A stretch of 53,325 bases of DNA from Sulfurimonas sp. CG01_land_8_20_14_3_00_36_23 (GTDB taxonomy: Bacteria; Campylobacterota; Campylobacteria; Campylobacterales; Sulfurimonadaceae): positions 1-53,325 of the forward strand of contig PETN01000026.1 in NCBI GenBank assembly GCA_002781365.1. The letters run 5' to 3'. The position numbers and the translations under genes are program-made. The notes beneath the pieces were generated by a model. The model was not told the DNA's origin. It was given only the letters and a program-made list of their open reading frames with translations, and searched no databases. Positions 14,237 through 30,873 of the stretch are shown one piece after another. The stretch's first letter is position 1. Each line of letters opens with the position of its first letter.

Positions 14237-14258
14237 AAATTAACATAAAATTAACACT
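14237..14258 (+). promoter_or_regulatory. 11-bp-spaced direct repeat upstream of the TonB receptor operon
   Basis: Two AAATTAACA-type half-sites in direct orientation, one helical turn apart (AAATTAACAT then AAAATTAACACT). The same 22-bp element, with a single base difference, occurs at 22605-22626 before exbB. The layout fits an OmpR-family or similar activator overlapping the -35 region. Confidence 0.6.
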
Positions 14259-14283
14259 TCTCTATTACTATTTGCATAACAAA

Positions 14284-14394
14284 ATTCCTTGCCCTAATTT
14301 CAGTTTGGCGACTTCTTAGGCAAGGAATGGCGACTAGCACCGAAGCAATTTTATCATTTTTTACTAAATTAAATCATAAGCTCTCCTTCGGTGC
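14284..14394 (+). promoter_or_regulatory. structured 5' leader of the TonB-receptor gene (candidate cis-regulatory RNA)
   Basis: Hairpin 1 has perfect 10-bp arms, ATTCCTTGCC (14284-14293) and GGCAAGGAAT (14319-14328). Its 25-nt loop contains GGCGACT, a word repeated just after the stem (14329-14335). Hairpin 2 has perfect 9-bp arms, GCACCGAAG (14337-14345) and CTTCGGTGC (14386-14394). The ribosome-binding site AGGGGA follows at 14413-14418. It does not match cobalamin, TPP, FMN or Moco riboswitch consensus as far as I can recall them. Confidence 0.55.
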
Positions 14395-14422: not shown

Positions 14423-16516
14423 ATGATAAAAGTAAATGGTATAAGATTGTCTTTAGTAGTTGCTGCAACTCTTTTAAGTGTAGCAAATGTAAGCGCATCG
14501 GACTTAGGAACGATTCAAGTTGAATCATCCACAATTGATGGAAAAACAGATACAAAAAAAACAGAAGTCTCAAGCACTGCGACTATAAGCAGAGAAGATG
14601 TTGAAAAGATAAATCCAAAAACGATTACGGACTTACTGAGTGGTATTGCAGGGGTTACTATCTCCAATGTTGGAACTGATGCCGCAAAAGTACATATTCG
14701 AGGTGTTGATAATCAAAACTATATGGGTGAAAAACCAGGTGTTGCTATCGTTATAGATGGTGTTCCAGTGCAAGAAACAAGTGGGAAAATAAATGTTGAC
14801 CTTGATAATATAGAGTCCATCAAAGTGATTAAGGGTGGGGCTTCTTATCTTTATGGAAATGATGCACTTGCGGGTGCGGTGATTATCACAACTAAAAAGG
14901 CAAAAGGCAAAGACTCCTCAAAAGTGGAGGGTGAAGTTGGAAGTTTTAACTCTAAAAGATTTATGGCTTCAACAAACCAAAGTTTTGATAACTCTGCTCT
15001 GCAACTTCAAGGAAACTACAGATCTTCTGATGGGTATTGGGAAGATGCGTATGTACTTGTAAAATCAATCAATGGAAAATATACTTACTATATAAATGAT
15101 GCCAGTGACATCACTTTTGGCATGGATTATACGCAAAGAAAAACGGGTGATGGAAACAGTGTATCAGGAACCATCGCCGCAGAAACAAACCCGAGAAGTG
15201 TTGGAGAGTACTCTTATGGCGGTTATTATGACAGTACACTTGTAAAATCATTTGTTACCTACTCAAATAATCTAGATGACAAAACAAACTTTATGATAAA
15301 TATTCACAAATATCTCGATGACAAAACATCTAAACTTGCAAGAGCCACAAAAAATGCGAGTGAAATCTGGAATCAAGATGGTGCAAAAGGGGAGTATAAA
15401 ACGGCTTTTGACTCTGTAGCATTTATGGTTGGATTTGACATTCAAAAAAATGCAACAGATGAGACGACGCGATTGGCACTCGATGGCTCACTCTCTTCAG
15501 ATTTTAAAACAAATGAACGCATCAATGCACTTTATACAGAGGTTAAAATAGAGCCTATAAAGGACTTTACAGCGACATTTAACTTCCGATACGACAACAT
15601 CGAGCATCAATATATGGATAAATCTGATACAACAAAAGATGTAAGCCCCACATATAATATTGGTTCTTATAGAGCTGGGTTCAACTATGCTTTAACGCCA
15701 AAGAGTTCACTCTATTCAAGTGTCTCAACAGGTTTTAGAACTCCAACTGTGACGCAGACAAGTGTAAATCAACAAGCATTAAAAGTAGACCCAACGCTTG
15801 CGATTCCCGCTGAGATAAAAGTAGAGACAAGTTACAACTACGAGATAGGCGTGCGAGGTACACACTCAGACATCAAGTATGATGCTTCGATTTATCAACT
15901 TGATAGAACCAACTATATAGGTAGAATTGCAGGAAATTACATCACCTCTAACGATGAGGATGAGAGTAACTATGACAATGTAGGGGATATGAGAAGCCGA
16001 GGTTTTGAACTCTCTGCTATAAGTGATTTAGAGAAGATGTTCTCTTTTGAACTGGCATACACTTATCTTGATGCAGTCTTTACAAATTATTGGATTTCTC
16101 AACAGTTAACTGTGAACACTGCACGTCGTGGACAACCAACAAATGCACAGTTTCAACGTGTGGATTTCTCTGGAAATCAAGTACCACGAACTTCAACACA
16201 CAATGCAAAAATCACACTCAACTACCAACCTATCACAGATGCGATGATTTCAACGGATATATTGCTCAAGGGAAGTTACTATGCAGATGAAGCAAATGTA
16301 CATAAAATGCCAGGGTATGAAGTAGTTAATCTTCGTGCAAACTACAAGTATAAAAATGGATTGGAAATTTTTGCAAGAATCGATAATCTTTTGGACACAA
16401 ATTATTATCAGTTTGTAAATATCAACTCTTCTGCCATCGCAGATATGACAACAGACGCGACTATCAGGGTTGGACAACCACGAGCATACTACGCTGGTCT
16501 GAGATACAAGTTCTAA
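14423..16516 (+). CDS. TonB-dependent outer-membrane receptor
   Basis: About 697 aa from the ATG at 14423, which has AGGGGA five bases before it. An upstream in-frame ATG at 14327 lies within the structured leader and is unlikely. A signal peptide (MIKVNGIRLSLVVAATLLSVANVSA) is followed by a TonB-box-like GTIQVES, then the plug domain (ISREDVEKINPKTITDLLSGIAGV, HIRGVDNQN, VAIVIDGVPVQ, IKVIKGGASYLYGNDALAGAVIIT) and a beta-barrel ending in the expected C-terminal Phe (AGLRYKF). The ligand is unknown. Downstream genes encode membrane Fe-S electron-transfer proteins and a dedicated ExbB-ExbD-TonB, so the receptor probably imports a substrate that is then reduced. Confidence 0.93.
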   Translation: MIKVNGIRLSLVVAATLLSVANVSASDLGTIQVESSTIDGKTDTKKTEVSSTATISREDVEKINPKTITDLLSGIAGVTISNVGTDAAKVHIRGVDNQNYMGEKPGVAIVIDGVPVQETSGKINVDLDNIESIKVIKGGASYLYGNDALAGAVIITTKKAKGKDSSKVEGEVGSFNSKRFMASTNQSFDNSALQLQGNYRSSDGYWEDAYVLVKSINGKYTYYINDASDITFGMDYTQRKTGDGNSVSGTIAAETNPRSVGEYSYGGYYDSTLVKSFVTYSNNLDDKTNFMINIHKYLDDKTSKLARATKNASEIWNQDGAKGEYKTAFDSVAFMVGFDIQKNATDETTRLALDGSLSSDFKTNERINALYTEVKIEPIKDFTATFNFRYDNIEHQYMDKSDTTKDVSPTYNIGSYRAGFNYALTPKSSLYSSVSTGFRTPTVTQTSVNQQALKVDPTLAIPAEIKVETSYNYEIGVRGTHSDIKYDASIYQLDRTNYIGRIAGNYITSNDEDESNYDNVGDMRSRGFELSAISDLEKMFSFELAYTYLDAVFTNYWISQQLTVNTARRGQPTNAQFQRVDFSGNQVPRTSTHNAKITLNYQPITDAMISTDILLKGSYYADEANVHKMPGYEVVNLRANYKYKNGLEIFARIDNLLDTNYYQFVNINSSAIADMTTDATIRVGQPRAYYAGLRYKF

Positions 16517-16525
16517 CTATAAAAA

Positions 16526-17188
16526 GTGGACGCGCTCTCTTACCTCTCACTCTTTATTATAGGACTCTCTTATGGAGGTACGGCATGCATGTTCTCATGT
16601 ATGCCCTTTTTAGCACCGCTTTTGGTCAATCAGACAAATGGAGTGAAGCAATCACTCTCACTCCTTGTTCCTTTTAGCTTAGGGCGTATGCTCTCTTATA
16701 CGCTCCTATCGGTAGCGGCTTTAGCGGGTGCAGGTTTTGTAAAAGCAGTTTTGAAAGAGAATACTATTTTTGTGTGGATACTCGGAGGCTTTACACTCTT
16801 TATGGGAGTGCTTATGCTCTACAGAGTGTTCAATAAAGAGAGAAGAGCGTGTTCTACAAACAGACCTCTAGCAAATGGACTAAAAAATACAAAGTTTGGT
16901 CTCTTTGCTATGGGTGTATTGCTCTCTTTAACACCATGCGCTCCTGTGCTCACGCTTGTAGCATTGAGTGCAAACAGTAGTTCCTTTCCACATGCTGTAG
17001 GTATGGGAATATCTTTTGGTCTAGGTGCAGTACTTGTGCCTTTTTTGTTTTACGGTTTTTTTCTCTCAACGCTCATTCGGGGCTTGTTGGCAGAGTTTAA
17101 ATCCTATGCAGAAAATATTGAAATAGCTGCCGCAACTCTTTTAATGGTTGTGGGAGTTTTAGTTATGAGTGGTCAAATAAAACTTTAA
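16526..17188 (+). CDS. DsbD/CcdA-like six-helix membrane protein
   Basis: A 220-aa integral membrane protein with about six helices in two half-repeats. Each half has a Cys-Pro-type motif: TACMFSCMPFLAPLL near the N-terminus and LTPCAPVLTL in the middle. It resembles the DsbD_2/SafE family whose members often sit beside CcoG-type polyferredoxins. A role in passing reducing power across the membrane, or in metal handling, is plausible. The GTG start has no obvious Shine-Dalgarno sequence; with only 9 bp after the receptor stop it probably relies on coupling. A near copy of the 12-bp word lies at 16985-16996. Confidence 0.8.
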   Translation: MDALSYLSLFIIGLSYGGTACMFSCMPFLAPLLVNQTNGVKQSLSLLVPFSLGRMLSYTLLSVAALAGAGFVKAVLKENTIFVWILGGFTLFMGVLMLYRVFNKERRACSTNRPLANGLKNTKFGLFAMGVLLSLTPCAPVLTLVALSANSSSFPHAVGMGISFGLGAVLVPFLFYGFFLSTLIRGLLAEFKSYAENIEIAAATLLMVVGVLVMSGQIKL

Positions 17189-17198
17189 AAGGTAAAAA

Positions 17199-19532
17199 AT
17201 GGTTGAGTTTATAAAAAGAGATAAAAATGATATTTTTAACAAGCCTCTGCTTGGGTTTTTGTTAAAAAACAGAAAGTTTTTAATGAGTTTAAGAGTAGTT
17301 GTATCAGCACTCTTTTTCTATGGTATCTACTACGGGTTTGCTCATCCTGGAAAAGAGAATCTCTTTACAGGCGCACTCTTTTGGGGGATTTTTTGGGCAC
17401 TCTTTATGGTTGCTACGCTTCCTAGTTTTGGGAGAATCTTCTGCGGTATCTGCCCGCATGGATTTTTAGGAAAATATATAACAAAGTATGGACTCCAAAA
17501 AACGATGCCTAAGTGGATGCAAAACAGATATATAGGTATAACTCTGCTTGTGATTGGCTGGTGGGGAATCTACTATACTTTTCCCTCATTTTGGAAATCA
17601 CCACTCACTACGGCACTTCTCTTTTATGGGGTAACTCTGCTTGCTTTTACTTTTTATATTATTTATAAAGATATGAGTTATTGCAAATATATCTGCCCTA
17701 TTGGAACACTCACACGTGCTTACGATAAGCTCTCCTTTACAAAGCTTGAGACCTATACCGATAGCTGTAAAGATTGTAGAACTTTTGAGTGTGCGAGTGC
17801 CTGTTCTTATAATCTCAAGCCTTTTAGTTTTGCAAAGAAAAATCAAGCCGATGATTGTACCCTTTGTATGGATTGTGCAACAAGTTGTGAAGCTGTGAAG
17901 TTTACGCTGACCAAGCCCTCAGAGCAACTCTTCTCTAGATTTAAAACACTCAATGCAGAAGTTTGGACGTACATTCTTATCCTCGGTGCTATCCCAATCT
18001 CTATGAGTTTTGCACATGGATTAAACAGAACAAAAATAGCCGACTCTATGATCTGGAATCAAACCGCTAACTATTTTGGCATGAGCGAATATGCTGGTGG
18101 ATTTGCCTTCGCCTATGCGATTTTCTTTACAATTTTCTTTTCTGTGCTCGGACTTTTCCTTGCATCCAAAGTTCTTAAAAAAGAGTACACATTGACTTTT
18201 GCTACGCTAGGGTATGCCTATGCACCGCTCTTTATCTTAGGTTCACTTGGACACACTTTGGGAAGTTTTTTCACAAGTGATTATCAGGAAATCGTGGGTG
18301 GTTTTGCGCAGGCGTTTGGGCTTGTTGTTGAGGTTGAACCGCTTGCACATCGCGGGGATAGCTGGCTTAGCTATTTTGGAGTCTTGAAATGGATAGGTGT
18401 TTTGTGGGCTTTCATTCTCATCTACAAACGCATGAAACTCATTGAAGCTTCAAAGGTTCGTAAAGTTTTCGCTTATTTCTTCAGTTCCTTTTTACTCTTT
18501 TTCTTTATAGGTTTAAATTTTTACTCAGGCTATGTCTTTAAAACATACGGCGCCAAAGAGCGTGGAGACTCCATGCATAAGAGTGCCATGGGAGCGCTCA
18601 AAAAAGAGAGACCACAGAGTGAGGGAAGTTATGCAAAGAGAGGGCAGATGCAAGAGTCTGAGCCTATCTACTTTACACTCACTGACCCAAAAAAAGCAGT
18701 ATCTGGGAGTAAGAGAGGCTCCATGTCCCATGGCTCAGGAGATAAAAAAAGAGTTCCTTCAAAAGAGGCATGGCTTGTGTATGGTAAAGATATTACAAAT
18801 GCAAAAGCGATTCCTGAGATACAGATAGAGACTTTTTACTACGATACGAAGAAAAAACCCAACGAGCTGAAAGTTGAAATGAAAAAAGGGAGCAGGGTCT
18901 ATAGTTTTGAGACTCCAGAGAATGGGTATTACAACCTGTATGCAAAAAGTGAGATACAAACAGACAAAGAGTTCCTCTATAAAGTAGCAAAGTTGGAGTA
19001 CTTAAGTGGTCGCCACGGTGTGGAAACACTCTATTCACCAAAGGTGAAAGAGCGAGTGCTCACAGATAAAACAAAAATAGATTTGATACGAATCAAAAAG
19101 GATGAAGAAAATAGCTTTTTTTATAAAAGTGTTATGGGTGAGGAGCTTGCATTTAAAGCTCTTTTTGAGAGCCTACCGCTAAGAGATGCAACTCTAGTTA
19201 TAACCATGCAGAGTGGTTGGAGTAAAAAAGTTCAAACAGATGAAGATGGAGTGGCAAAATTTCATATCATTCGAGACTATTTTCCTGAGTGGGGAAGTTT
19301 TGATAAAAGACATAAAGAGGAGATGCTTCTCACACTTTTCCACATGCCAAAGGAGAGCGAGCAATATATCCTGACCTATCCACTCTCTTTTTATCCAAAC
19401 TCCAGTGATTACGCCTCTTATGGTTATGCACTTTTACTAATTAGCTTGACGCTTTTTATCTCAGGAGTGATTGTTTATAGATTTAGAAAAAACAGAACGA
19501 AACCTTTTAGTGAGTTACGCCATGAAGAGTAA
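17199..19532 (+). CDS. membrane polyferredoxin (NapH/CcoG/NosR-type) fused to a soluble C-terminal domain
   Basis: A 777-aa protein. After several helices come CGIC (82-85), YCKYICPIG (162-169) and two ferredoxin clusters, C190-C193-C198-C202 and C220-C223-C226-C230, typical of NapH/NosR/CcoG-type membrane electron carriers. No N-terminal FMN domain of the NosR kind is present. More helices follow to about residue 500. A soluble segment (about 520-740) then contains LPLRDATLVITMQSGWSKKVQTDEDGVAKF, similar to DUF4198/carboxypeptidase-regulatory-like domains seen in metal-transport proteins, and a last membrane anchor. Its likely job is moving electrons across or within the membrane. It overlaps the next gene by 11 bp. 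Confidence 0.83.
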   Translation: MVEFIKRDKNDIFNKPLLGFLLKNRKFLMSLRVVVSALFFYGIYYGFAHPGKENLFTGALFWGIFWALFMVATLPSFGRIFCGICPHGFLGKYITKYGLQKTMPKWMQNRYIGITLLVIGWWGIYYTFPSFWKSPLTTALLFYGVTLLAFTFYIIYKDMSYCKYICPIGTLTRAYDKLSFTKLETYTDSCKDCRTFECASACSYNLKPFSFAKKNQADDCTLCMDCATSCEAVKFTLTKPSEQLFSRFKTLNAEVWTYILILGAIPISMSFAHGLNRTKIADSMIWNQTANYFGMSEYAGGFAFAYAIFFTIFFSVLGLFLASKVLKKEYTLTFATLGYAYAPLFILGSLGHTLGSFFTSDYQEIVGGFAQAFGLVVEVEPLAHRGDSWLSYFGVLKWIGVLWAFILIYKRMKLIEASKVRKVFAYFFSSFLLFFFIGLNFYSGYVFKTYGAKERGDSMHKSAMGALKKERPQSEGSYAKRGQMQESEPIYFTLTDPKKAVSGSKRGSMSHGSGDKKRVPSKEAWLVYGKDITNAKAIPEIQIETFYYDTKKKPNELKVEMKKGSRVYSFETPENGYYNLYAKSEIQTDKEFLYKVAKLEYLSGRHGVETLYSPKVKERVLTDKTKIDLIRIKKDEENSFFYKSVMGEELAFKALFESLPLRDATLVITMQSGWSKKVQTDEDGVAKFHIIRDYFPEWGSFDKRHKEEMLLTLFHMPKESEQYILTYPLSFYPNSSDYASYGYALLLISLTLFISGVIVYRFRKNRTKPFSELRHEE
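19337..19348 (-). repeat. dispersed 12-bp word GGCATGTGGAAA
   Basis: Exact copy on the minus strand inside the polyferredoxin gene, read there as the residues FHMP. Confidence 0.85.
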
Positions 19533-20508
19533 AATCAAAAAAATTATAAACAATATGAACCTCTCAAGAGTTCGTTTTTGGATACAGCTTTTTAGCTTTG
19601 TGTTGTTTGTATATGGGGGTTATTTTGCCATAGATTTAGGCTCGAAACTGCCTATTTTCACATGCCCTTACAATGAGCAAAGCGGAGCGACGTGTTACTT
19701 GATTCCACTGCAACATCAACTCTCTATGCCTGCGCAAATCTTACTTGGCGGTGCGGGTATCAGTGTGATAGTTGGACTTGTAACCTTCCTTTTTTGGTTT
19801 ATTTTTCTCAACAAAGCGTGGTGCGGGTATGTATGCCCTTTTGGAACGTTTCAAGATTGGCTTACATCTTTGAGAAAAAGTATGGGTATTCGCTACTCGA
19901 CCTACACTCAAAATCAGTTTGAGAGGCTCTCAAAGATAAAGTATGTACTCTTAGCCATAGTGCTTTTAGCTCCGCTTCTTATGGGTGTGGGTGCTTTAGG
20001 GAGTGAGTGGTCGGCCGCTTTTTGTCAGATTTGTCCTGCACGTATTATCTCGCCTATGTTTAGTGGAGATTTGTCGCAGTGGAAAATCGATTTTTCAACG
20101 AAAACTTCGATGATTTTAACAGCTATCGGTATGATTTTCGCAGGACTTTTTTTGGTGGGAAGTTTTATAAAAAAACGCTTCTTCTGCTTCTTCTGTCCTA
20201 TGAGCGCACTGCACTTTATCTTCTCAAAATTCTCTATCGTACAGCTTACAAAAGATGGAAGCAAATGCAGTACTTGTGGAGATTGTTACGCTGTTTGCGA
20301 CATGCAGATAAAAGATATTGCAGATGATGTCAAAAGTACAAACATCTTAAGAGATGACTGTATCTTATGTCTTAAATGTGTAGCGGCATGTCCTGAAAAT
20401 GATGCCTTGCACTTTGATATATTTAAAATCCGCGCCTTTAGTTCCACAAGAGAGGGGTTTGAAAAGAGAATGGGATTACATAAACCAAAAGGAGACTCAG
20501 GTGAGTAG
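19522..20508 (+). CDS. NapH-like membrane ferredoxin (4Fe-4S)
   Basis: About 328 aa from the ATG at 19522, inside the end of the preceding gene. The longer frame from 19471 is not supported. Four or five membrane helices are interrupted by CGYVCPFGTFQDWL, CQICPARII and CFFCPMSALHF. Two C-terminal 4Fe-4S clusters follow: CSTCGDCYAVC and CILCLKCVAACP. This is the NapH/CcoG-like arrangement. Next to the larger polyferredoxin it suggests a two-protein relay delivering low-potential electrons to the soluble Fe-S protein encoded immediately downstream. Confidence 0.85.
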   Translation: MKSKIKKIINNMNLSRVRFWIQLFSFVLFVYGGYFAIDLGSKLPIFTCPYNEQSGATCYLIPLQHQLSMPAQILLGGAGISVIVGLVTFLFWFIFLNKAWCGYVCPFGTFQDWLTSLRKSMGIRYSTYTQNQFERLSKIKYVLLAIVLLAPLLMGVGALGSEWSAAFCQICPARIISPMFSGDLSQWKIDFSTKTSMILTAIGMIFAGLFLVGSFIKKRFFCFFCPMSALHFIFSKFSIVQLTKDGSKCSTCGDCYAVCDMQIKDIADDVKSTNILRDDCILCLKCVAACPENDALHFDIFKIRAFSSTREGFEKRMGLHKPKGDSGE

Positions 20509-21778
20509 CATGCATGAGCATAAGATAGAGACACCCAACGAAAAGCAGAACAGACACAAAGCGATGGAGAGCGTCAATGTTTTAAACACGCTCAAAGAGG
20601 GTTTCAAAACTCCGCCAAAAGCGATGGATTATTTTTATAATCTTTTTGAAGATGTTTACTGCAACCAAAAAGCTCTGCATAAAGATAAAGTCAAAGTAGG
20701 AACGATGTGTATTCAGATTCCCTCAGAGATTATCTATGCGCTTGATGGCGTTCCCATCAGACTCTGCAACGGTTTTTATACGGATGATGAGATTGGAAGT
20801 GACTTCCTGCCGCAAAAAGCGTGTCCTTTAGTAAAGGCAAGCGTAGGGCATCTCTCCTCCAAAAACCTTACCGATAAACCAGATATGATTTACTCTCCTA
20901 CAACCTGCGACCAAAAAACAAAAGCGGGAACACTCATAGCAAGTTTTGGGTATGAGGTCGTAGATGTTGATTTTCCAAGAACCAAAGAGAGCGAGATTAG
21001 CAGAGAGTTTTTTAGACGAAGCATCCGAGAATTTAGTGCAGATTTGTCACAGAAAATGGGCAAAAAGTTAAGCAGAAAAAACTTAAAAGCCTCTATCTCC
21101 AAGATAGGGTATGCCCAATCGCTCTATCATCAAATATCAGAATTTAGAAAAAACAAGATTGTCCCAATCCTTGGAAATGACATCTTTTTAGTAACAAACG
21201 CCTTCTTCTTTGACAAAATAGATAACTGGATTGAAGCTACAGAGAAGTTGGTTGAAGAGTTAGAGCAGAGAGTAAAAGATGAGGTTAATGCCGCAGGAAA
21301 GATAAGCCCGAGAATCGTCTATACAGGTTCTCCCCCAATCTTTCCTAACTACAAAATCCCTCTTATTATTGAGGATTCCGATGGCATTATCGTGGCAGAT
21401 GAGACTTGTAGTTCCAACAGAATGTTTAACGACAGAGTCGCGGTAGATGAGTGGTTTGTAAACGATATGATTGACTCTTTGGCAGATAAGTATTTAAAAG
21501 CATGTACCTGCCCAGTTTTTAGTAAAAATGATGACCGCATACGTCGCATTGTAGAGCTTGTACGATCGCACAATGCCGATGGAGTTATCTATCAAGCCTT
21601 TGCGGGGTGTACGGTTTATGAGCTTGAACAGAGAAGTGTGCTTGAAGCGATGGAGCGAGAGGGTATCTCTATTCTTTACATCGAGAGTGATTACAGTCCT
21701 TCGCAACATGGACAGCTTAGTACCAGAGTCGAAGCGTTTATCGAATCTCTGAAAATCAAGAACAGGAACAAAAAATGA
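20501..21778 (+). CDS. 2-hydroxyacyl-CoA dehydratase (HgdB)-like Fe-S protein, possible double-cubane reductase
   Basis: 425 aa. I choose the GTG at 20501, which has AAGGAG six bases upstream and overlaps the previous stop by 8 bp; an ATG at 20510 is the alternative. The fold is that of HgdB/BcrB/FldB-type subunits. Numbered from this start, Cys89, Cys108 and Cys136 (RLCNG, KACPLVK, TTCDQK) lie in the N-lobe. Cys303, Cys335/337 and Cys370 (ADETCSSNRMF, KACTCPVF, FAGCTVYE) lie in the C-lobe. One three-Cys set per lobe in a single chain is what a double-cubane cluster protein would need; a normal dehydratase is a heterodimer. No second dehydratase subunit gene is present. Function as an ATP-driven reductase of a small substrate is inference from the family and the activator next door. 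Confidence 0.8.
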   Translation: MSSMHEHKIETPNEKQNRHKAMESVNVLNTLKEGFKTPPKAMDYFYNLFEDVYCNQKALHKDKVKVGTMCIQIPSEIIYALDGVPIRLCNGFYTDDEIGSDFLPQKACPLVKASVGHLSSKNLTDKPDMIYSPTTCDQKTKAGTLIASFGYEVVDVDFPRTKESEISREFFRRSIREFSADLSQKMGKKLSRKNLKASISKIGYAQSLYHQISEFRKNKIVPILGNDIFLVTNAFFFDKIDNWIEATEKLVEELEQRVKDEVNAAGKISPRIVYTGSPPIFPNYKIPLIIEDSDGIIVADETCSSNRMFNDRVAVDEWFVNDMIDSLADKYLKACTCPVFSKNDDRIRRIVELVRSHNADGVIYQAFAGCTVYELEQRSVLEAMEREGISILYIESDYSPSQHGQLSTRVEAFIESLKIKNRNKK

Positions 21779-22584
21779 AATATTTCGCAGGAATAGACAT
21801 AGGTTCAACTGCTATTAAAATAACGATTATTGATGAAAACAAAGAGATGGTGGGACATAGAATCAGCGGAAGTGGAAGTATGTTTTACAACTATGCCCAT
21901 CAAACGCTTAATGACCTGCTTAAGGATTTAAACATTAGCAAAGAAGAGGTACTTTATACAGTCGCGACAGGCTATGGCAGAAAACTTTTTAAAGAAGCCG
22001 ATGAAAATATTAGTGAGATAACGGCAAATGCCATCGGAGCGGTAGCCGCGGCGAAAGAGTTTGGTGCGATAAAAACCATCATCAACATAGGCGGACAAGA
22101 TTCCAAGGCAATCTCGCTCGATGAGATGGGCAATGTAGTGAACTTTGCTATGAATGACCGCTGTGCGGCAGGAACTGGAAAGTTTTTGGATGCCTGTGCG
22201 ATGAACCTTGAGATAGGAGTCGAGGAGCTTGGAGAGAGACACTTCAACTCCAAAGGAACACCACTCTCCATCAACAGCACCTGCGCAGTTTTTGCAGAGT
22301 CTGAAATCATAGGACTTTTGGGAAATAGCCACAGTGTTGAAGATATTGTCAGCGGTGTTCACTACTCTATCGCGAAAAGAATCGTGAAGCTTGTTAAACG
22401 CGTGGGGATAAAAGAGGGCATCTATTTTGATGGAGGACCCGCCCTCAATGGTGGACTTGTCAATGCAATAGAGAATGAGTTGGGTAAAAAAATATTTATA
22501 CCAACATACCCACAAGTGACGACCTCTTTTGGTGCTGCGATTTTAGGAGTGGACTCTTATAACTATCAGAGCGTAGGTGTATAA
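21775..22584 (+). CDS. BadF/HgdC-type ATPase, activator of the HgdB-like protein
   Basis: A 269-aa ASKHA-fold ATPase. Phosphate-binding loops are AGIDIGSTAIK (N-terminus) and INIGGQDSKAI (about 104-113). The cysteines that bridge a single 4Fe-4S cluster between two subunits are Cys130 in NDRCAAGTGKF and Cys170 in STCAVFAESE. FDGGPALNGG completes the nucleotide site. Such activators use ATP to fire one electron at very low potential into their partner. The 4-bp ATGA overlap with the HgdB-like gene confirms the pair. Length is normal for HgdC-like proteins. Confidence 0.9.
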   Translation: MKYFAGIDIGSTAIKITIIDENKEMVGHRISGSGSMFYNYAHQTLNDLLKDLNISKEEVLYTVATGYGRKLFKEADENISEITANAIGAVAAAKEFGAIKTIINIGGQDSKAISLDEMGNVVNFAMNDRCAAGTGKFLDACAMNLEIGVEELGERHFNSKGTPLSINSTCAVFAESEIIGLLGNSHSVEDIVSGVHYSIAKRIVKLVKRVGIKEGIYFDGGPALNGGLVNAIENELGKKIFIPTYPQVTTSFGAAILGVDSYNYQSVGV

Positions 22585-22604
22585 AAAGATGCTTCAAAAT
22601 GGAG

Positions 22605-22626
22605 AAATTAACACAAAATTAACACT
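22605..22626 (+). promoter_or_regulatory. 11-bp-spaced direct repeat upstream of exbB
   Basis: AAATTAACAC followed by AAAATTAACACT, identical at 21 of 22 positions to 14237-14258. A TATAAC -10-like hexamer follows at 22639-22644. The shared element indicates that exbB-exbD-tonB is co-regulated with the receptor operon although it has its own promoter. Confidence 0.6.
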
Positions 22627-22665
22627 AACAACCTAAAATATAACAAAAAAAATAGGGTTAATGTT

Positions 22666-23109
22666 ATGGATATAGAATTACTTCAAGATGGTCTTGATTA
22701 TGGGGTTATCGGGATACTTGGTATGATGAGTTTTATTACTCTATGGTTTTGGATAGAGAGGATTCTTTTTTACCGTACGCTTGATTTAAGTAGCTATAAA
22801 TTAAAAGAGTCGTTAGAGATAGACCTTACAAACAACATCAGTATCATCTCCTCTTTTGGCTCCAACGCACCCTACATTGGTCTCCTTGGAACAGTTTTTG
22901 GAATCATCATCACTTTTTACGTTATGGGACAAGGTGGTGATTTGGATGCAAAAAACATTATGACCTCTCTCGCACTTGCACTCAAAGCGACCGCTATGGG
23001 TCTAGCGGTTGCAATCCCTGCTATCTTTTTTCATACGCACATAGTGAGAAAGATGGAAGTCTTAATCGCAAAATGGGAAATCCTTCAAAAGGAAAAACTT
23101 GAATATTAA
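22666..23109 (+). CDS. exbB: ExbB, TonB-system proton channel subunit
   Basis: A 147-aa MotA/TolQ/ExbB family protein with three membrane helices. The conserved core is NAPYIGLLGTVFGIIITFYVMGQGG and the helix ALALKATAMGLAVAIPAIFFHTHI. Short ExbB forms like this are usual in Campylobacterota. It powers TonB with ExbD. An 81-bp gap with its own promoter-like sequence precedes it; it overlaps exbD by 11 bp. Confidence 0.93.
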   Translation: MDIELLQDGLDYGVIGILGMMSFITLWFWIERILFYRTLDLSSYKLKESLEIDLTNNISIISSFGSNAPYIGLLGTVFGIIITFYVMGQGGDLDAKNIMTSLALALKATAMGLAVAIPAIFFHTHIVRKMEVLIAKWEILQKEKLEY

Positions 23110-23485
23110 AAAATTTGAATCCATCAATGTAGTTCCTTTTATCGACATCATGCTTGTCCTTTTGGTTATCGTCCTAACCACGGCCACCTTTGTCGCCAAA
23201 GGGGTTATCCCCGTTGAGTTGCCAAACTCTAAAAGTGCCGCAAAGCAGGATAATCAAAAAACGCTCACGATTACTATCAAGCAAAATGGAGATATTTTTT
23301 TTGATGAGGGGCAGGTTTTGTTACAAGATATAGAGAGACAAATCGCACAATATGAAGCGAAAACTCCTATCAACATTAATTGTGACAAAGAAGCAAAATT
23401 TGATGTGTTCGTTACTCTTCTCGACACGCTCAAAGAAAAAAGTTTCAATAACATTGGAATTATCACTAAAAAAAAGAGTCAATGA
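23099..23485 (+). CDS. exbD: ExbD, TonB-system subunit
   Basis: A 128-aa protein with one N-terminal membrane helix. The essential proton-pathway aspartate is Asp16 in VVPFIDIMLVLLVI; the periplasmic part follows VELPNSKSA. It starts at TTG (23099) with AAGGA upstream, inside the end of exbB, and overlaps tonB by 4 bp. The three genes form one translational unit. Confidence 0.93.
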   Translation: MNIKKFESINVVPFIDIMLVLLVIVLTTATFVAKGVIPVELPNSKSAAKQDNQKTLTITIKQNGDIFFDEGQVLLQDIERQIAQYEAKTPININCDKEAKFDVFVTLLDTLKEKSFNNIGIITKKKSQ

Positions 23486-24177
23486 TGAGTCGCTATCTAA
23501 ACTCTTTTTTTATCGCATTTGCACTCTACTCCTCTGCTTTTGGTGTTATCCTTTACCAATCCACAACAGATAACTTTAGTGACCAACAAACTACAAACGA
23601 GAATGTCAGCCGAGTCTGCTTCTCAGTCATTAATGAGCAGACGCCTATTGTAAAAGAGGAAGTAAAACTTGAGAAGAAAGTCGAGAAGAAAATAGTCAAA
23701 AAAGAGGTTTTACAAACGCCTAACCCAATAGCCAAAGCAACAAGAGAGGTCATAAAAAAAGAGGAACCAAAACCAACTCCAAAGGAAGAGGTGAAGGAAG
23801 TTGTGCAAAAAGAGACCAAAGCAGTTCCAAAACAGAAGATGCAAAAAGTAGTAAGCACAGCGGTAGCCGAGTCAGAAAATGCAGAGATGTTAAAAGCAAA
23901 ACAAGACAAGTTTCTCTCCCATCTAGTAGAAAAAATCAACTCCAACAAATCCTACCCAAACATGGCAAGAAGAAGAGTTATAGAGGGAAATGTAGAGATG
24001 AAGTTTCATCTTTTAGCGGATGGAAGCGTAGAGCATATCAAGCTCATCTCTGGCAGACACATATTTAAAGAATCCGCAGTAGAAGCCATCGCAAAAAGTT
24101 TTCCCGTTGAGGTAGATAAAACACTCTTTAGCTTTCCAAAAGAGTTGAAAATAACGATTGCATATATTTTGAAGTAA
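23482..24177 (+). CDS. tonB: TonB energy-transducing protein
   Basis: 231 aa. An N-terminal membrane anchor (about residues 5-25) is followed by a long Lys/Glu/Pro-rich periplasm-spanning spacer (EEPKPTPKEEVKEVVQKE). The C-terminal TonB domain (about 145-231) contains YPNMARRRVIEGNVEMKFHLLADGSV and AIAKSFPVEV. It should contact the TonB box of the receptor encoded about 9 kb upstream in the same block. An exact copy of the 12-bp word lies 6 bp after the stop. Confidence 0.93.
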   Translation: MMSRYLNSFFIAFALYSSAFGVILYQSTTDNFSDQQTTNENVSRVCFSVINEQTPIVKEEVKLEKKVEKKIVKKEVLQTPNPIAKATREVIKKEEPKPTPKEEVKEVVQKETKAVPKQKMQKVVSTAVAESENAEMLKAKQDKFLSHLVEKINSNKSYPNMARRRVIEGNVEMKFHLLADGSVEHIKLISGRHIFKESAVEAIAKSFPVEVDKTLFSFPKELKITIAYILK

Positions 24178-27239: not shown

Positions 27240-27884
27240 ATGAAAGTTGTTTTGCTCGAAGATAAATACTTGTTAAACAATACTATAAAAGAGTATTTAG
27301 AATCCAAAGGTGCGTATGTCGAATCTTACTTAGATGCGCAAGAGTTGTTAAATAATTATAACTTTAAAGCAGATATTGTTGTTTTGGGTATTCAAAACCA
27401 TGAAGCTGGAGGTTTTGAAGTTATTGAGTGGATTAAGAGAATAGATGCTCATGTTCCAACTCTCTTTATAATAACATATACAGATATTGAGAGTATTAAA
27501 AAAGGGTGTGCCTTTGAGTGCTCAGACTACATGAAAAAACCGTTTCTCTTAGAAGAACTTTGGTTGAAGATAGAGCGATTGTTAGATTGCTCAGCCCAGA
27601 AAAAAATCACACTTAGCAATACTATGAGCTTTGATTTAGAAAATGAACAACTCTATTGCTCTTCTAACATTATGAAGTTAACAAAAATACAGCGAAAGAT
27701 TTTAAAACTATTGATAAATCATAAAAATACAATCGTGACGTATGAAGTTCTCATCAGTGAAATTTGGCAAGATTTTTTTATACAAACAAATACAATCGCA
27801 TCCCATATTAAAAATATTCGTAGATATATCCCTAAAAATATGATTGAAAGCGTAAGAGCTGAAGGATATAGATTACTCCTCTAA
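27240..27884 (+). CDS. OmpR-family response regulator lacking the phosphoacceptor Asp
   Basis: 214 aa. A receiver domain occupies residues 1-115 and a winged-helix DNA-binding domain about 125-214 (KIQRKILKLLINHKNTIVTYEVL, ending RAEGYRLLL). The acidic pair (Glu7, Asp8) and the conserved Lys of MKKPF are present. Where the phosphorylated Asp should stand, the strand reads DIVVLGIQN, with Gly50. No sensor kinase gene is nearby. It is therefore an atypical, probably phosphorylation-independent regulator. It is a candidate for the 11-bp direct-repeat sites in this window, without direct proof. Confidence 0.85.
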   Translation: MKVVLLEDKYLLNNTIKEYLESKGAYVESYLDAQELLNNYNFKADIVVLGIQNHEAGGFEVIEWIKRIDAHVPTLFIITYTDIESIKKGCAFECSDYMKKPFLLEELWLKIERLLDCSAQKKITLSNTMSFDLENEQLYCSSNIMKLTKIQRKILKLLINHKNTIVTYEVLISEIWQDFFIQTNTIASHIKNIRRYIPKNMIESVRAEGYRLLL

Positions 27885-27987
27885 ATATTCGGCTCATAAC
27901 TATACTTTCTAAATTTCTCCATAGTTTCTCCATACTCTTTAGATAGACTTACTCTAAGTGATAAAAAAACTCGAAAAGGAGTAGGAA

Positions 27988-28668
27988 ATGGTACATGAAT
28001 TGATAAAACTACCTTATGCATACAATGCATTAGAACCTATAATGTCAACTGAGACACTCCAATACCATCATGGTAAACATCATGCAGGTTATATCTCCAA
28101 GTTGAATAGCTTGATTCCTGGAACAGAGTATGAAACCAAAAGTTTGGTTGAGATGATAAAGCATGCAGAGGGTGCGATTTTTAACAATGCTGCGCAAGTT
28201 TACAACCATGATTTTTTTTGGACAAATCTCTCGCCTGAGAACACAACTCCATCCTTAGCACTTGATTCCATTATAAATGCGCAGTTTGGTTCTGTAGAAG
28301 CTTTCAAAAAAGCTTTTATTGAAAAAGGGCTTGCTCTGTTTGGTTCAGGTTGGGTTTGGCTCTGCATTGATGAGAAAACAAATCTTAGTATTGTGAGCAC
28401 CTCAAACGCTGATAACCCTATCCGTTCAGGATTAGTTCCCTTAATGGTGTGTGATGTTTGGGAACATGCTTACTATATCGACTACAGAAATGCGCGAGCA
28501 GATTATCTTGAAGGTTTCTGGAAACTTGTAAATTGGAAGTTTGTATCGTTTAACTATGCAAACCATGAAAAGCATCGCGGAGATTATTTTTCCAATTTTT
28601 GCAGCGATAATACGCCTTATTGTGACTATGTAGATTCGATTGATGCTATGGAAAATGCAGGAAGCTGA
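27988..28668 (+). CDS. sodB: iron superoxide dismutase
   Basis: Dismutates superoxide in the cytoplasm. 226 aa. Metal ligands are His27 (YHHGKHH), His74 (NHDFFW), Asp156 and His160 (DVWEHAYYIDY). The sequence is of the Fe type (FGSGWVWL). It carries about 30 extra residues after the normal end (WKFVSFNY), containing two cysteines (NFCSDNTPYCDY). A strong AAAAGGAGTAGGAA ribosome-binding region precedes the ATG. It is followed after 30 bp by the metal ATPase gene, a probable stress operon. Confidence 0.94.
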   Translation: MVHELIKLPYAYNALEPIMSTETLQYHHGKHHAGYISKLNSLIPGTEYETKSLVEMIKHAEGAIFNNAAQVYNHDFFWTNLSPENTTPSLALDSIINAQFGSVEAFKKAFIEKGLALFGSGWVWLCIDEKTNLSIVSTSNADNPIRSGLVPLMVCDVWEHAYYIDYRNARADYLEGFWKLVNWKFVSFNYANHEKHRGDYFSNFCSDNTPYCDYVDSIDAMENAGS

Positions 28669-28698
28669 ATAAGGATGCTATAAAAATAGGAGGTTATT

Positions 28699-30873
28699 GT
28701 GAGTAAAGAGGAACATATAAACTCTTGCAACGGCACTTGTAGTATCGGGCAGAATTTTTACACCTGTCCTATGCATCCAGAGATTCACCAAGACCATCCA
28801 GGAACTTGCCCAAAATGCGGGATGGCACTTGAACCTCTCAATGTAGAAGTGAGCAAAGAGAGTGCTGAAAGTGATGAACTTCACGATATGAGCAGGCGTT
28901 TTTGGATAAGTGCGATTATCTCCGTGCCGATTTTTATAGTTGCTATGACAAGCGACCTTTTCCCACAATACTTACCTGCTAGCATCAGCATGAAAAACAT
29001 TCAATGGTTTGAATTTTTCTTGGCTACTCCAGTTGTTCTGTGGGGAGGATGGCCTTTCTTTGTCCGCGGATACAAATCCGTTGTCACATGGAATCTAAAT
29101 ATGTTTACGCTCATCGCTATCGGTGTTGCAACTGCATGGATATACAGCGTTGTCGCTCTCTTTTTTCCAACGATTTTTCCACCCTTAATGCGGAGTGAAT
29201 CTGGTTTAGTCCATGTCTATTTTGAAGCAGCGGCTATGATTACCTCTTTGGTACTTCTGGGGCAAGTGCTAGAACTCAGAGCAAGAAGTAAAACCAATAG
29301 TGCCATTAAAACTCTCCTCAATCTCGCTCCAAAAAAAGCCCATCTGATTGATAAAGAGGGAAATGAGAAGGATGTCGCTCTTGAACAAGTTGAAGTAGGT
29401 GACCTTTTGAGGATAAAACCTGGCGAAAAAGTGCCAGTAGATGGTGTCGTCACAGAGGGTCAAAGCAATATGGACGAATCGATGATAACAGGAGAACCTC
29501 TTCTTGTTACAAAAAGTGTTGAAGATTCTCTCATAGGTGCTACGCTTAACAAAAATGGAACCCTCATCATGCGTGCGCAAAGTGTGGGAAAAGATACCAT
29601 GTTAGCACAGATTGTAGAGATGGTAGCACACGCACAGCGTTCACGTGCTCCGATTCAAAAGCTTGCAGACACAGTCTCTGGTTACTTTGTACCTGCTGTG
29701 GTACTCTTTGCCGTTTTGGCTTCTGTGGGATGGTGGATTTTTGGACCTGAACCTCGTTTGGCATACGCTGTTGTAGCCGCAGTTTCAGTCTTAATCATCG
29801 CTTGCCCGTGTGCTTTGGGTTTAGCAACACCCATCTCCATCATGATTGGAACAGGTCGCGCTGCCTTAGAGGGTGTCTTGGTTAAGGATGCGCGAACCTT
29901 AGAGACGATGGAAAAAGTCACTATGCTCGTAGTGGATAAAACTGGTACATTAACTCAGGGCAAGCCAACGGTTACAACTTTTAAAACTTTGGGTGAGATA
30001 GATAGAGCAAAAGCACTCTCTTACGCCGCAACTCTAGAACGCGCAAGTGAGCATCCTTTAGCAGAAGCAGTCGTTCATAAAGCCAAAGAAGAGAATCTAT
30101 CACTTATGCAAGTGACTCATTTTAATGCAACAACAGGCAAAGGTATCCAAGGCGAAATCGACAATAAAGAAATCGCTATGGGGAGTGAGAAGTTTTTTCA
30201 AAGTTTGGGTATCTCCACGCAAGAGAGTATCACTGAAGCCCAGCAACTGCGAGAAGAGGGAAATACGGTGATTTTTCTGGCTGTTGATTCTAAACTAGCC
30301 GCCATTATAGGGATAGAAGACCCAATCAAAGAGAGCTCAGCAGAAGCGATTGAAGCGCTCAAAGATGAAGGTATAGATATTGTAATGATTAGCGGTGACA
30401 ATGAGATAACTGCAAACGCTGTAGCAAAAAAACTTCATATTATGAAAGTATATGCAAATGTCCTTCCTCAAGAGAAAGCTGAGATTATCAAACGATTGCA
30501 GGCGGATGGTGCTGTTGTGGCGATGGCTGGCGATGGGATAAATGACGCGCCTGCCTTAGCACAGGCAGATGTAGGTATCGCCATGGGAACAGGTACGGAT
30601 GTGGCGATAGAGAGTGCTGGAATCACCCTCATCAAAGGAAATCTTCTAGGTATTTTAAAAATAAGAAAACTGAGCCATGCTACGATGAAAAACATCAGAC
30701 AAAATCTCTTTTTTGCCTTTGTTTACAATAGCGTGGGTGTTCCAATCGCAGCAGGAGTTTTGTACCCATTTTTTGGACTGCTGCTCTCACCTATCATAGC
30801 CGCGGCGGCTATGAGTCTCAGTTCTGTTTCTGTTATTACAAATGCTTTGCGTTTAAAAAGTATGAAAATCTAG
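28699..30873 (+). CDS. copA: P1B-type heavy-metal (copper) transporting ATPase
   Basis: 724 aa. The N-terminus has the Cys/His heavy-metal-binding segment YTCPMHPEIHQDHPGTCPKCG rather than a ferredoxin-like CxxC domain. The transmembrane metal site is CPC (369-371, IIACPCALGLATP), which indicates monovalent Cu or Ag. The phosphorylated Asp413 lies in DKTGTLTQGKP, and MAGDGINDAPALAQADVGIAMG completes the catalytic site. It exports metal across the inner membrane using ATP. It starts at GTG with AGGAGG upstream. Confidence 0.93.
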   Translation: MSKEEHINSCNGTCSIGQNFYTCPMHPEIHQDHPGTCPKCGMALEPLNVEVSKESAESDELHDMSRRFWISAIISVPIFIVAMTSDLFPQYLPASISMKNIQWFEFFLATPVVLWGGWPFFVRGYKSVVTWNLNMFTLIAIGVATAWIYSVVALFFPTIFPPLMRSESGLVHVYFEAAAMITSLVLLGQVLELRARSKTNSAIKTLLNLAPKKAHLIDKEGNEKDVALEQVEVGDLLRIKPGEKVPVDGVVTEGQSNMDESMITGEPLLVTKSVEDSLIGATLNKNGTLIMRAQSVGKDTMLAQIVEMVAHAQRSRAPIQKLADTVSGYFVPAVVLFAVLASVGWWIFGPEPRLAYAVVAAVSVLIIACPCALGLATPISIMIGTGRAALEGVLVKDARTLETMEKVTMLVVDKTGTLTQGKPTVTTFKTLGEIDRAKALSYAATLERASEHPLAEAVVHKAKEENLSLMQVTHFNATTGKGIQGEIDNKEIAMGSEKFFQSLGISTQESITEAQQLREEGNTVIFLAVDSKLAAIIGIEDPIKESSAEAIEALKDEGIDIVMISGDNEITANAVAKKLHIMKVYANVLPQEKAEIIKRLQADGAVVAMAGDGINDAPALAQADVGIAMGTGTDVAIESAGITLIKGNLLGILKIRKLSHATMKNIRQNLFFAFVYNSVGVPIAAGVLYPFFGLLLSPIIAAAAMSLSSVSVITNALRLKSMKI

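Follow-up and report, generated by a model that had tools for sequence, protein, structure and literature searches.

What does a bacterium import, and what does it reduce, when it couples an outer-membrane receptor to membrane polyferredoxins and to an ATP-driven reductase pair of the HgdB/BadF type? This question is raised by a gene cluster at positions 14423-24177 (+ strand) of contig PETN01000026.1 from Sulfurimonas sp. CG01_land_8_20_14_3_00_36_23 (GenBank assembly GCA_002781365.1), of which the whole analysed stretch of 53,325 nucleotides is referred to here as the window. In the literature we found no description of such a cluster, including in Sulfurimonas. Judging from sequence, we consider it fairly probable that this is a copper-starvation acquisition operon, which would import chelated copper and free it reductively; this reading is built on the gene set, the folds and a regulatory box common to copper genes, all of which are observed.

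A preliminary description, made from the DNA letters, had listed nine co-directional genes. All nine are present on the + strand, and Pfam and NCBIfam searches agree on their families. The cluster opens with a TonB-dependent receptor of 697 residues (14423..16516; PF07715, PF00593), for which the start at 14423, followed by a signal peptide, is the likely one: the longest open reading frame, from 14327, starts within a structured leader discussed below. It is followed by a DsbD_2 (COG2836-like) membrane protein with a CMFSCMP motif (16526..17188), by a long polyferredoxin of 777 residues with a NapH-like membrane part (17199..19532) and by a second NapH-like polyferredoxin (Fer4_5, as the first), with a likely start at 19519 and the longest reading frame from 19471 (19519..20508). 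Then come the soluble pair, a double-cubane-type HGD-D protein (DCCP) of 422 residues (20510..21778) and a BadF/HgdC-type ATPase activator (BadF/CoA_E_activ) with cysteines in the motifs NDRCAAG and NSTCAVF (21775..22584), and finally ExbB (22666..23109), ExbD (23099..23485) and TonB (23482..24177; TonB_C).

Is this arrangement more than a coincidence of neighbours? We searched 397 genomes of the phylum for close relatives of the HGD-D protein and examined 27 close loci with their flanks, plus four distant ones. Close relatives (at least 55% identity) occur in 29 places; after a gap, the next and distant group reaches no more than about 35%. The DCCP of the cluster thus belongs to a distinct clade, present in about 7% of the sampled Campylobacterota. 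A NapH polyferredoxin stands beside DCCP in all 27 close loci, and the other partners are nearly as constant (receptor and long polyferredoxin 26 of 27 each, DsbD_2 and BadF 25 of 27 each), while ExbB, ExbD and TonB are found at 12-15 of them. The two loci that lack BadF lie in genomes that each carry a second cluster with BadF, and the four distant loci consist of DCCP and BadF alone. The cluster is not a chance neighbourhood, because its gene set is conserved in relatives; separate occurrence of the genes, which would have spoken against the functional unit first proposed, is not what the 27 close loci display. A scan of named genomes returned 23 long loci of equal composition, from genomes partly overlapping the 27-locus set. 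There, too, the close HGD-D relatives belong to Campylobacterota, many of the records being titled Sulfurimonas or Sulfurovum. The gene set is kept across families and is also found in Sulfurovum mangrovi ST1-3, a cultured and named strain, in which the operon lies on a 395-kb plasmid record (NZ_CP087125.1:350925-370178) and can probably move between strains. In several relatives an RND permease directly follows badF. A smaller module without DCCP (TonB receptor, free-standing DUF4198-like protein and NapH) adjoins the DCCP cluster at loci L039 and L041. Campylobacter-type genomes (family f3) hold stand-alone DCCP relatives (e.g. G213:C2:14563-15639 and G052:C1:174743-175819), many with one in-frame TAG or TAA stop, which suggests that the gene is widely interrupted or decayed there.

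The link to copper comes from the promoters. A direct repeat, TTAACA-N5-TTAACA, lies upstream of both transcription units: an 11-bp repeat of the OmpR-family type, TTAACATAAAATTAACACTT (14240..14259, + strand), before the receptor and a second box, TTAACACAAAATTAACACTA (22608..22627, + strand), before exbB. These are the only two exact sites in the whole genome. At up to one mismatch the genome holds 43 matches against 30 for a reversed control, so that lone matches away from promoters mean little. In relatives, exact boxes precede an OprC-type receptor (CPNRMD motif), NosL proteins and, in two of these genomes, a heme-only oxidase-like operon and a DsbD_2 gene lying directly before ccoNOQP (with CcoN named in one). 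In the genome studied here the box, as a near-exact and not an exact repeat, also precedes an OprC-type receptor and a NosL-ABC operon. Among 30 TonB receptors from five genomes (up to one mismatch allowed; of a cluster receptor at one more locus, a 3' fragment alone is present), the box is present at all four cluster receptors with an intact upstream region and at all three OprC-type (CPNRMDP) receptors, against none of 22 other receptors (7/7 versus 0/22, Fisher P 6e-7). It is also found at 8 of 19 NosL genes outside the Campylobacter-type families (0/11 inside them), and at 3 of 279 control genes from the neighbourhoods, all three being OmpR-type response regulators of one family; the gene classes were picked after the first box matches, the receptor and NosL tests using loci mostly unseen before. 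Taken as a whole, the copper link of the cluster is well supported.

Which regulator would read the box? One candidate is a response regulator encoded with a kinase and ExbB in one operon elsewhere in the genome (G000:C83:8246-8872), present in one copy per genome. This locus is orthologous to regulators that adjoin the cluster in some relatives; it has no box of its own, but a paralogue, G000:C31, does. Downstream of the operon, window positions 27240-30873 encode three further proteins: a response regulator of the OmpR type that lacks a kinase, a superoxide dismutase of the Fe/Mn type and a P-type ATPase for heavy metals that carries an HMBD domain. The regulator at 27240 is divergent, and we do not argue for it as the cognate one. 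Small exported proteins rich in Cys and Met, which may bind copper, also have a box or near-box before them at G000:C9:16718 in the same genome and at L210:6548-7000.

Between the promoter and the start codon of the receptor the transcript would fold into a hairpin, P1 (14284..14330, + strand; covariance model match 14284-14341), with the nearly invariant apex AGUUUGGCGACU, in which a single C-to-U change is seen. A second stem, P2, pairs GCACCGAAG with CTTCGGTGC (14337..14394, + strand) and is preceded by a bulge-like stretch, GCGACTA. The covariance model finds 11 convincing instances, seven of which are the sequences used to build it. All 11 have a box upstream, and downstream lies a TonB receptor in ten cases and a heme-only oxidase-like operon in one. 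Nine of the ten stem pairs vary on both sides among the 11 sequences, and the observed covariation was reached by none of 500 shuffles, on an alignment that was fitted to the covariance model and therefore somewhat favours the structure. Weak matches at L254, L256 and L257 lack the box and were taken as chance. A known riboswitch was rejected, as neither the window nor nine relatives matched an Rfam model at the gathering level, and hits at E<=10 were at chance level only. The leader is best regarded as a candidate copper-linked cis-regulatory RNA. The heme-only operon (L075:9424-13742), which has both box and leader RNA upstream, encodes a cytochrome-c-fused oxidase-like system and includes a CcoG-like gene.

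The membrane part of the cluster would carry the electrons. Both polyferredoxins are multi-span proteins with CxxCP motifs and two 4Fe-4S ferredoxin-type cysteine sets, features that they share with CcoG and with the NapH/MauN quinol dehydrogenase subunits. As to the label NapH/CcoG-type, given in the preliminary description, both proteins match NapH models below the cut-off (TIGR02163: 80.3 and 30.0 bits against 213). The CcoG half of the label proves loose: neither has an NCBIfam match to a CcoG model at E<=1e-3. What had been overlooked is that the long polyferredoxin ends in an extra periplasmic domain of about 290 residues (approximately 18648-19529). This domain, modelled at a predicted local distance difference test (pLDDT) score of 88.7, adopts the DUF4198 metal-binding fold: it compares with Zcp at Z 19.4 (root mean square deviation 2.4 over 190 residues) and with an Ni-bound DUF4198 protein at Z 16.7, after which the next matches fall far lower (Z 6.3). 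The Zcp structures matched were solved with Zn, Cu and Co. Fold comparison alone found these relatives (9MHJ, 9MHM, 9GCB), Pfam and PDB sequence searches giving no match for the domain; identity is 12-14%, and the domain differs from Zcp/DUF4198 proteins in being fused to a polyferredoxin and so anchored in the membrane, which also sets the long polyferredoxin apart from CcoG and NapH/MauN. Some relatives encode the domain as a protein of its own, which begins with a signal-like segment and is anchored in the membrane at its C terminus, and in many relatives His/Met-rich stretches precede the domain at its N terminus.

The soluble pair is the less familiar part. The HGD-D protein matches PF06050 over its full length (298.6 bits) and scores 324.2 bits with NF040772, the model of the double-cubane anaerobic reductase, below the equivalog cut-off of 350, which makes it a relative and not a strict member. 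Its best PDB matches are 6ENO and 7YYL, which we take, partly from general knowledge and partly from PMC11971306, to be the DCCP of Carboxydothermus hydrogenoformans. Nine cysteines are invariant among 19 relatives of the cluster protein; seven of the invariant ones (Cys 67, 86, 105, 133, 300, 334 and 367) align with cysteines of 7YYL. Like the C. hydrogenoformans protein, it adjoins a BadF-type ATP-dependent activator; unlike it, the cluster DCCP (about 30% identical) stands within a TonB/polyferredoxin operon. For the reactions known from DCCPs the physiological relevance is unclear and no role has been assigned (PMC11971306).

How might these parts work together? When copper is scarce, a response regulator of the OmpR family would probably act at the TTAACA-N5-TTAACA boxes and turn on the receptor operon together with its dedicated ExbBD-TonB. 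The receptor would then import a copper chelate into the periplasm, as does CrtA of Bordetella, a receptor of chelated copper without conserved Cys or Met that is paired with a PepSY_TM protein (PMC12914433). Both systems join a receptor without conserved Cys or Met to an adjoining membrane protein of a reductase family and to copper, sometimes with an ExbBD-TonB of their own, whereas in the cluster polyferredoxins and DCCP/BadF take the place of PepSY_TM, the regulator is another one and the receptor is weakly related (62 bits to the CrtA structure 9RVQ). The ionic copper receptors OprC and NosA share the promoter box and are direct neighbours of the cluster in two genomes; OprC binds copper through CxxxM-HxM (PMC8610252), while the cluster receptor has no cysteine at all and hence no CxxxM motif. 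In the periplasm, the DUF4198 domain may bind copper or its complex, as its fold suggests. Electrons would cross the inner membrane via the two NapH-like polyferredoxins, reducing Cu(II) to Cu(I) and releasing the copper, for which CcoG, NapH and FoxB-like proteins offer precedents; CcoG is described as a cupric reductase that reduces Cu(II) (Marckmann 2019, as cited in PMC8267372). ATP hydrolysis by BadF may drive electrons of very low potential into DCCP, which could pass them on to the cytoplasmic Fe-S domains of the polyferredoxins and thereby bring copper complexes that are strongly chelated or of low potential within reach of reduction; alternatively, DCCP might reduce the chelator itself. 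In relatives with the RND permease, the emptied ligand could be exported. The role of DCCP is the weakest step of this mechanism.

Several points weigh against copper uptake of this kind. Ordinary Cu(II) reduction needs no ATP-driven electrons, and therefore either the complexes would have to be of low potential or DCCP would have to act on the chelator. By sequence, the closest solved relative of the receptor is PqqU/YncD, not a copper receptor. Moreover, the box could follow respiration or the redox state rather than copper, since the genes for NosL, cbb3 and the alternative oxidase are respiratory as well. In its full form this last objection makes the box a respiratory/redox regulon (oxygen, N2O or quinone state) and the cluster a device for electron disposal or small-molecule reduction, the copper genes being co-regulated since cuproenzymes are respiratory. 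Boxes before the DsbD_2-ccoNOQP unit and the heme-only operon fit this view, and 11-bp TTAA direct repeats do resemble other OmpR-family redox boxes. Nonetheless we think it unlikely, if worth keeping in mind: OprC-type receptors and NosL handle copper without a catalytic respiratory role, and among TonB receptors the box picks the copper types and this cluster only.

Uptake of a ferric siderophore or another iron chelate, with periplasmic reduction by the polyferredoxins, electrons from BadF/DCCP and, in some relatives, ligand recycling by the RND permease, has the subfamily models in its favour: those of siderophore receptors score best for the cluster receptor. The permease behind badF is a layout like that of ligand recycling, and ferric catecholates have very low potentials. 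Yet no Fur-like site was found near the operon, and the promoter box is common to copper genes, not iron genes, and absent from other TonB receptors; iron is decidedly doubtful as the substrate. The kinship with PqqU/YncD might also point to import of a redox cofactor such as pyrroloquinoline quinone (PQQ), to be modified by the soluble pair. In the PDB, PqqU/YncD is indeed the best match of the receptor-family profile (182 bits, CrtA ranking below it and below several siderophore receptors), but the receptor scores 111 with the PqqU equivalog against a cut-off of 1200, none of the neighbours is known to use PQQ and the box is that of copper genes; PQQ uptake was accordingly rejected as very improbable. 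Lastly, a variant of 2-hydroxyacyl-CoA dehydratase or benzoyl-CoA reductase, suggested by the HGD-D and BadF families, is already contradicted, because a 2-hydroxyacyl-CoA dehydratase needs two different HGD-D subunits and PF06050 matches once in the whole genome, and the cluster has no CoA genes while its DCCP has double-cubane cysteines: acyl-CoA dehydration had been called unlikely for lack of a CoA-metabolism gene and a second subunit nearby, and the lack of a second subunit extends to the entire genome.

Copper acquisition remains our preferred reading. The idea of metal-complex uptake followed by reduction, as first put forward, survives, and the choice first offered between a metal complex, a cofactor and another substrate is narrowed to copper by the promoter box common to copper genes; that the HgdB-like protein itself reduces the imported substrate within the cell finds no support. 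A better guess would place the reduction on the periplasmic side of the membrane, since the cluster contains no inner-membrane importer but has polyferredoxins in the membrane and a metal-binding domain in the periplasm. The cluster would then be a variant of TonB-plus-reductase metal uptake whose electron source is, to our knowledge, unprecedented. It is conceivable, and we offer this more tentatively, that this is a metal-acquisition machine of a new kind, in which an ATP-powered double-cubane reductase drives the polyferredoxins to remove copper from chelates that could not be reduced otherwise, or destroys the chelator by reduction, with a new copper-linked leader RNA adding a layer of control.

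Double-cubane proteins are widespread, and the partners and the regulon of this clade suggest a role in copper starvation, so that the question of their substrate becomes directly testable. If the reading is true, this would be, as far as we know, the first instance of ATP-driven low-potential electrons serving metal uptake. It would also mean that those Campylobacterota which rely on the copper enzyme cbb3 oxidase possess a copper regulon with a box of its own and a covarying leader RNA.

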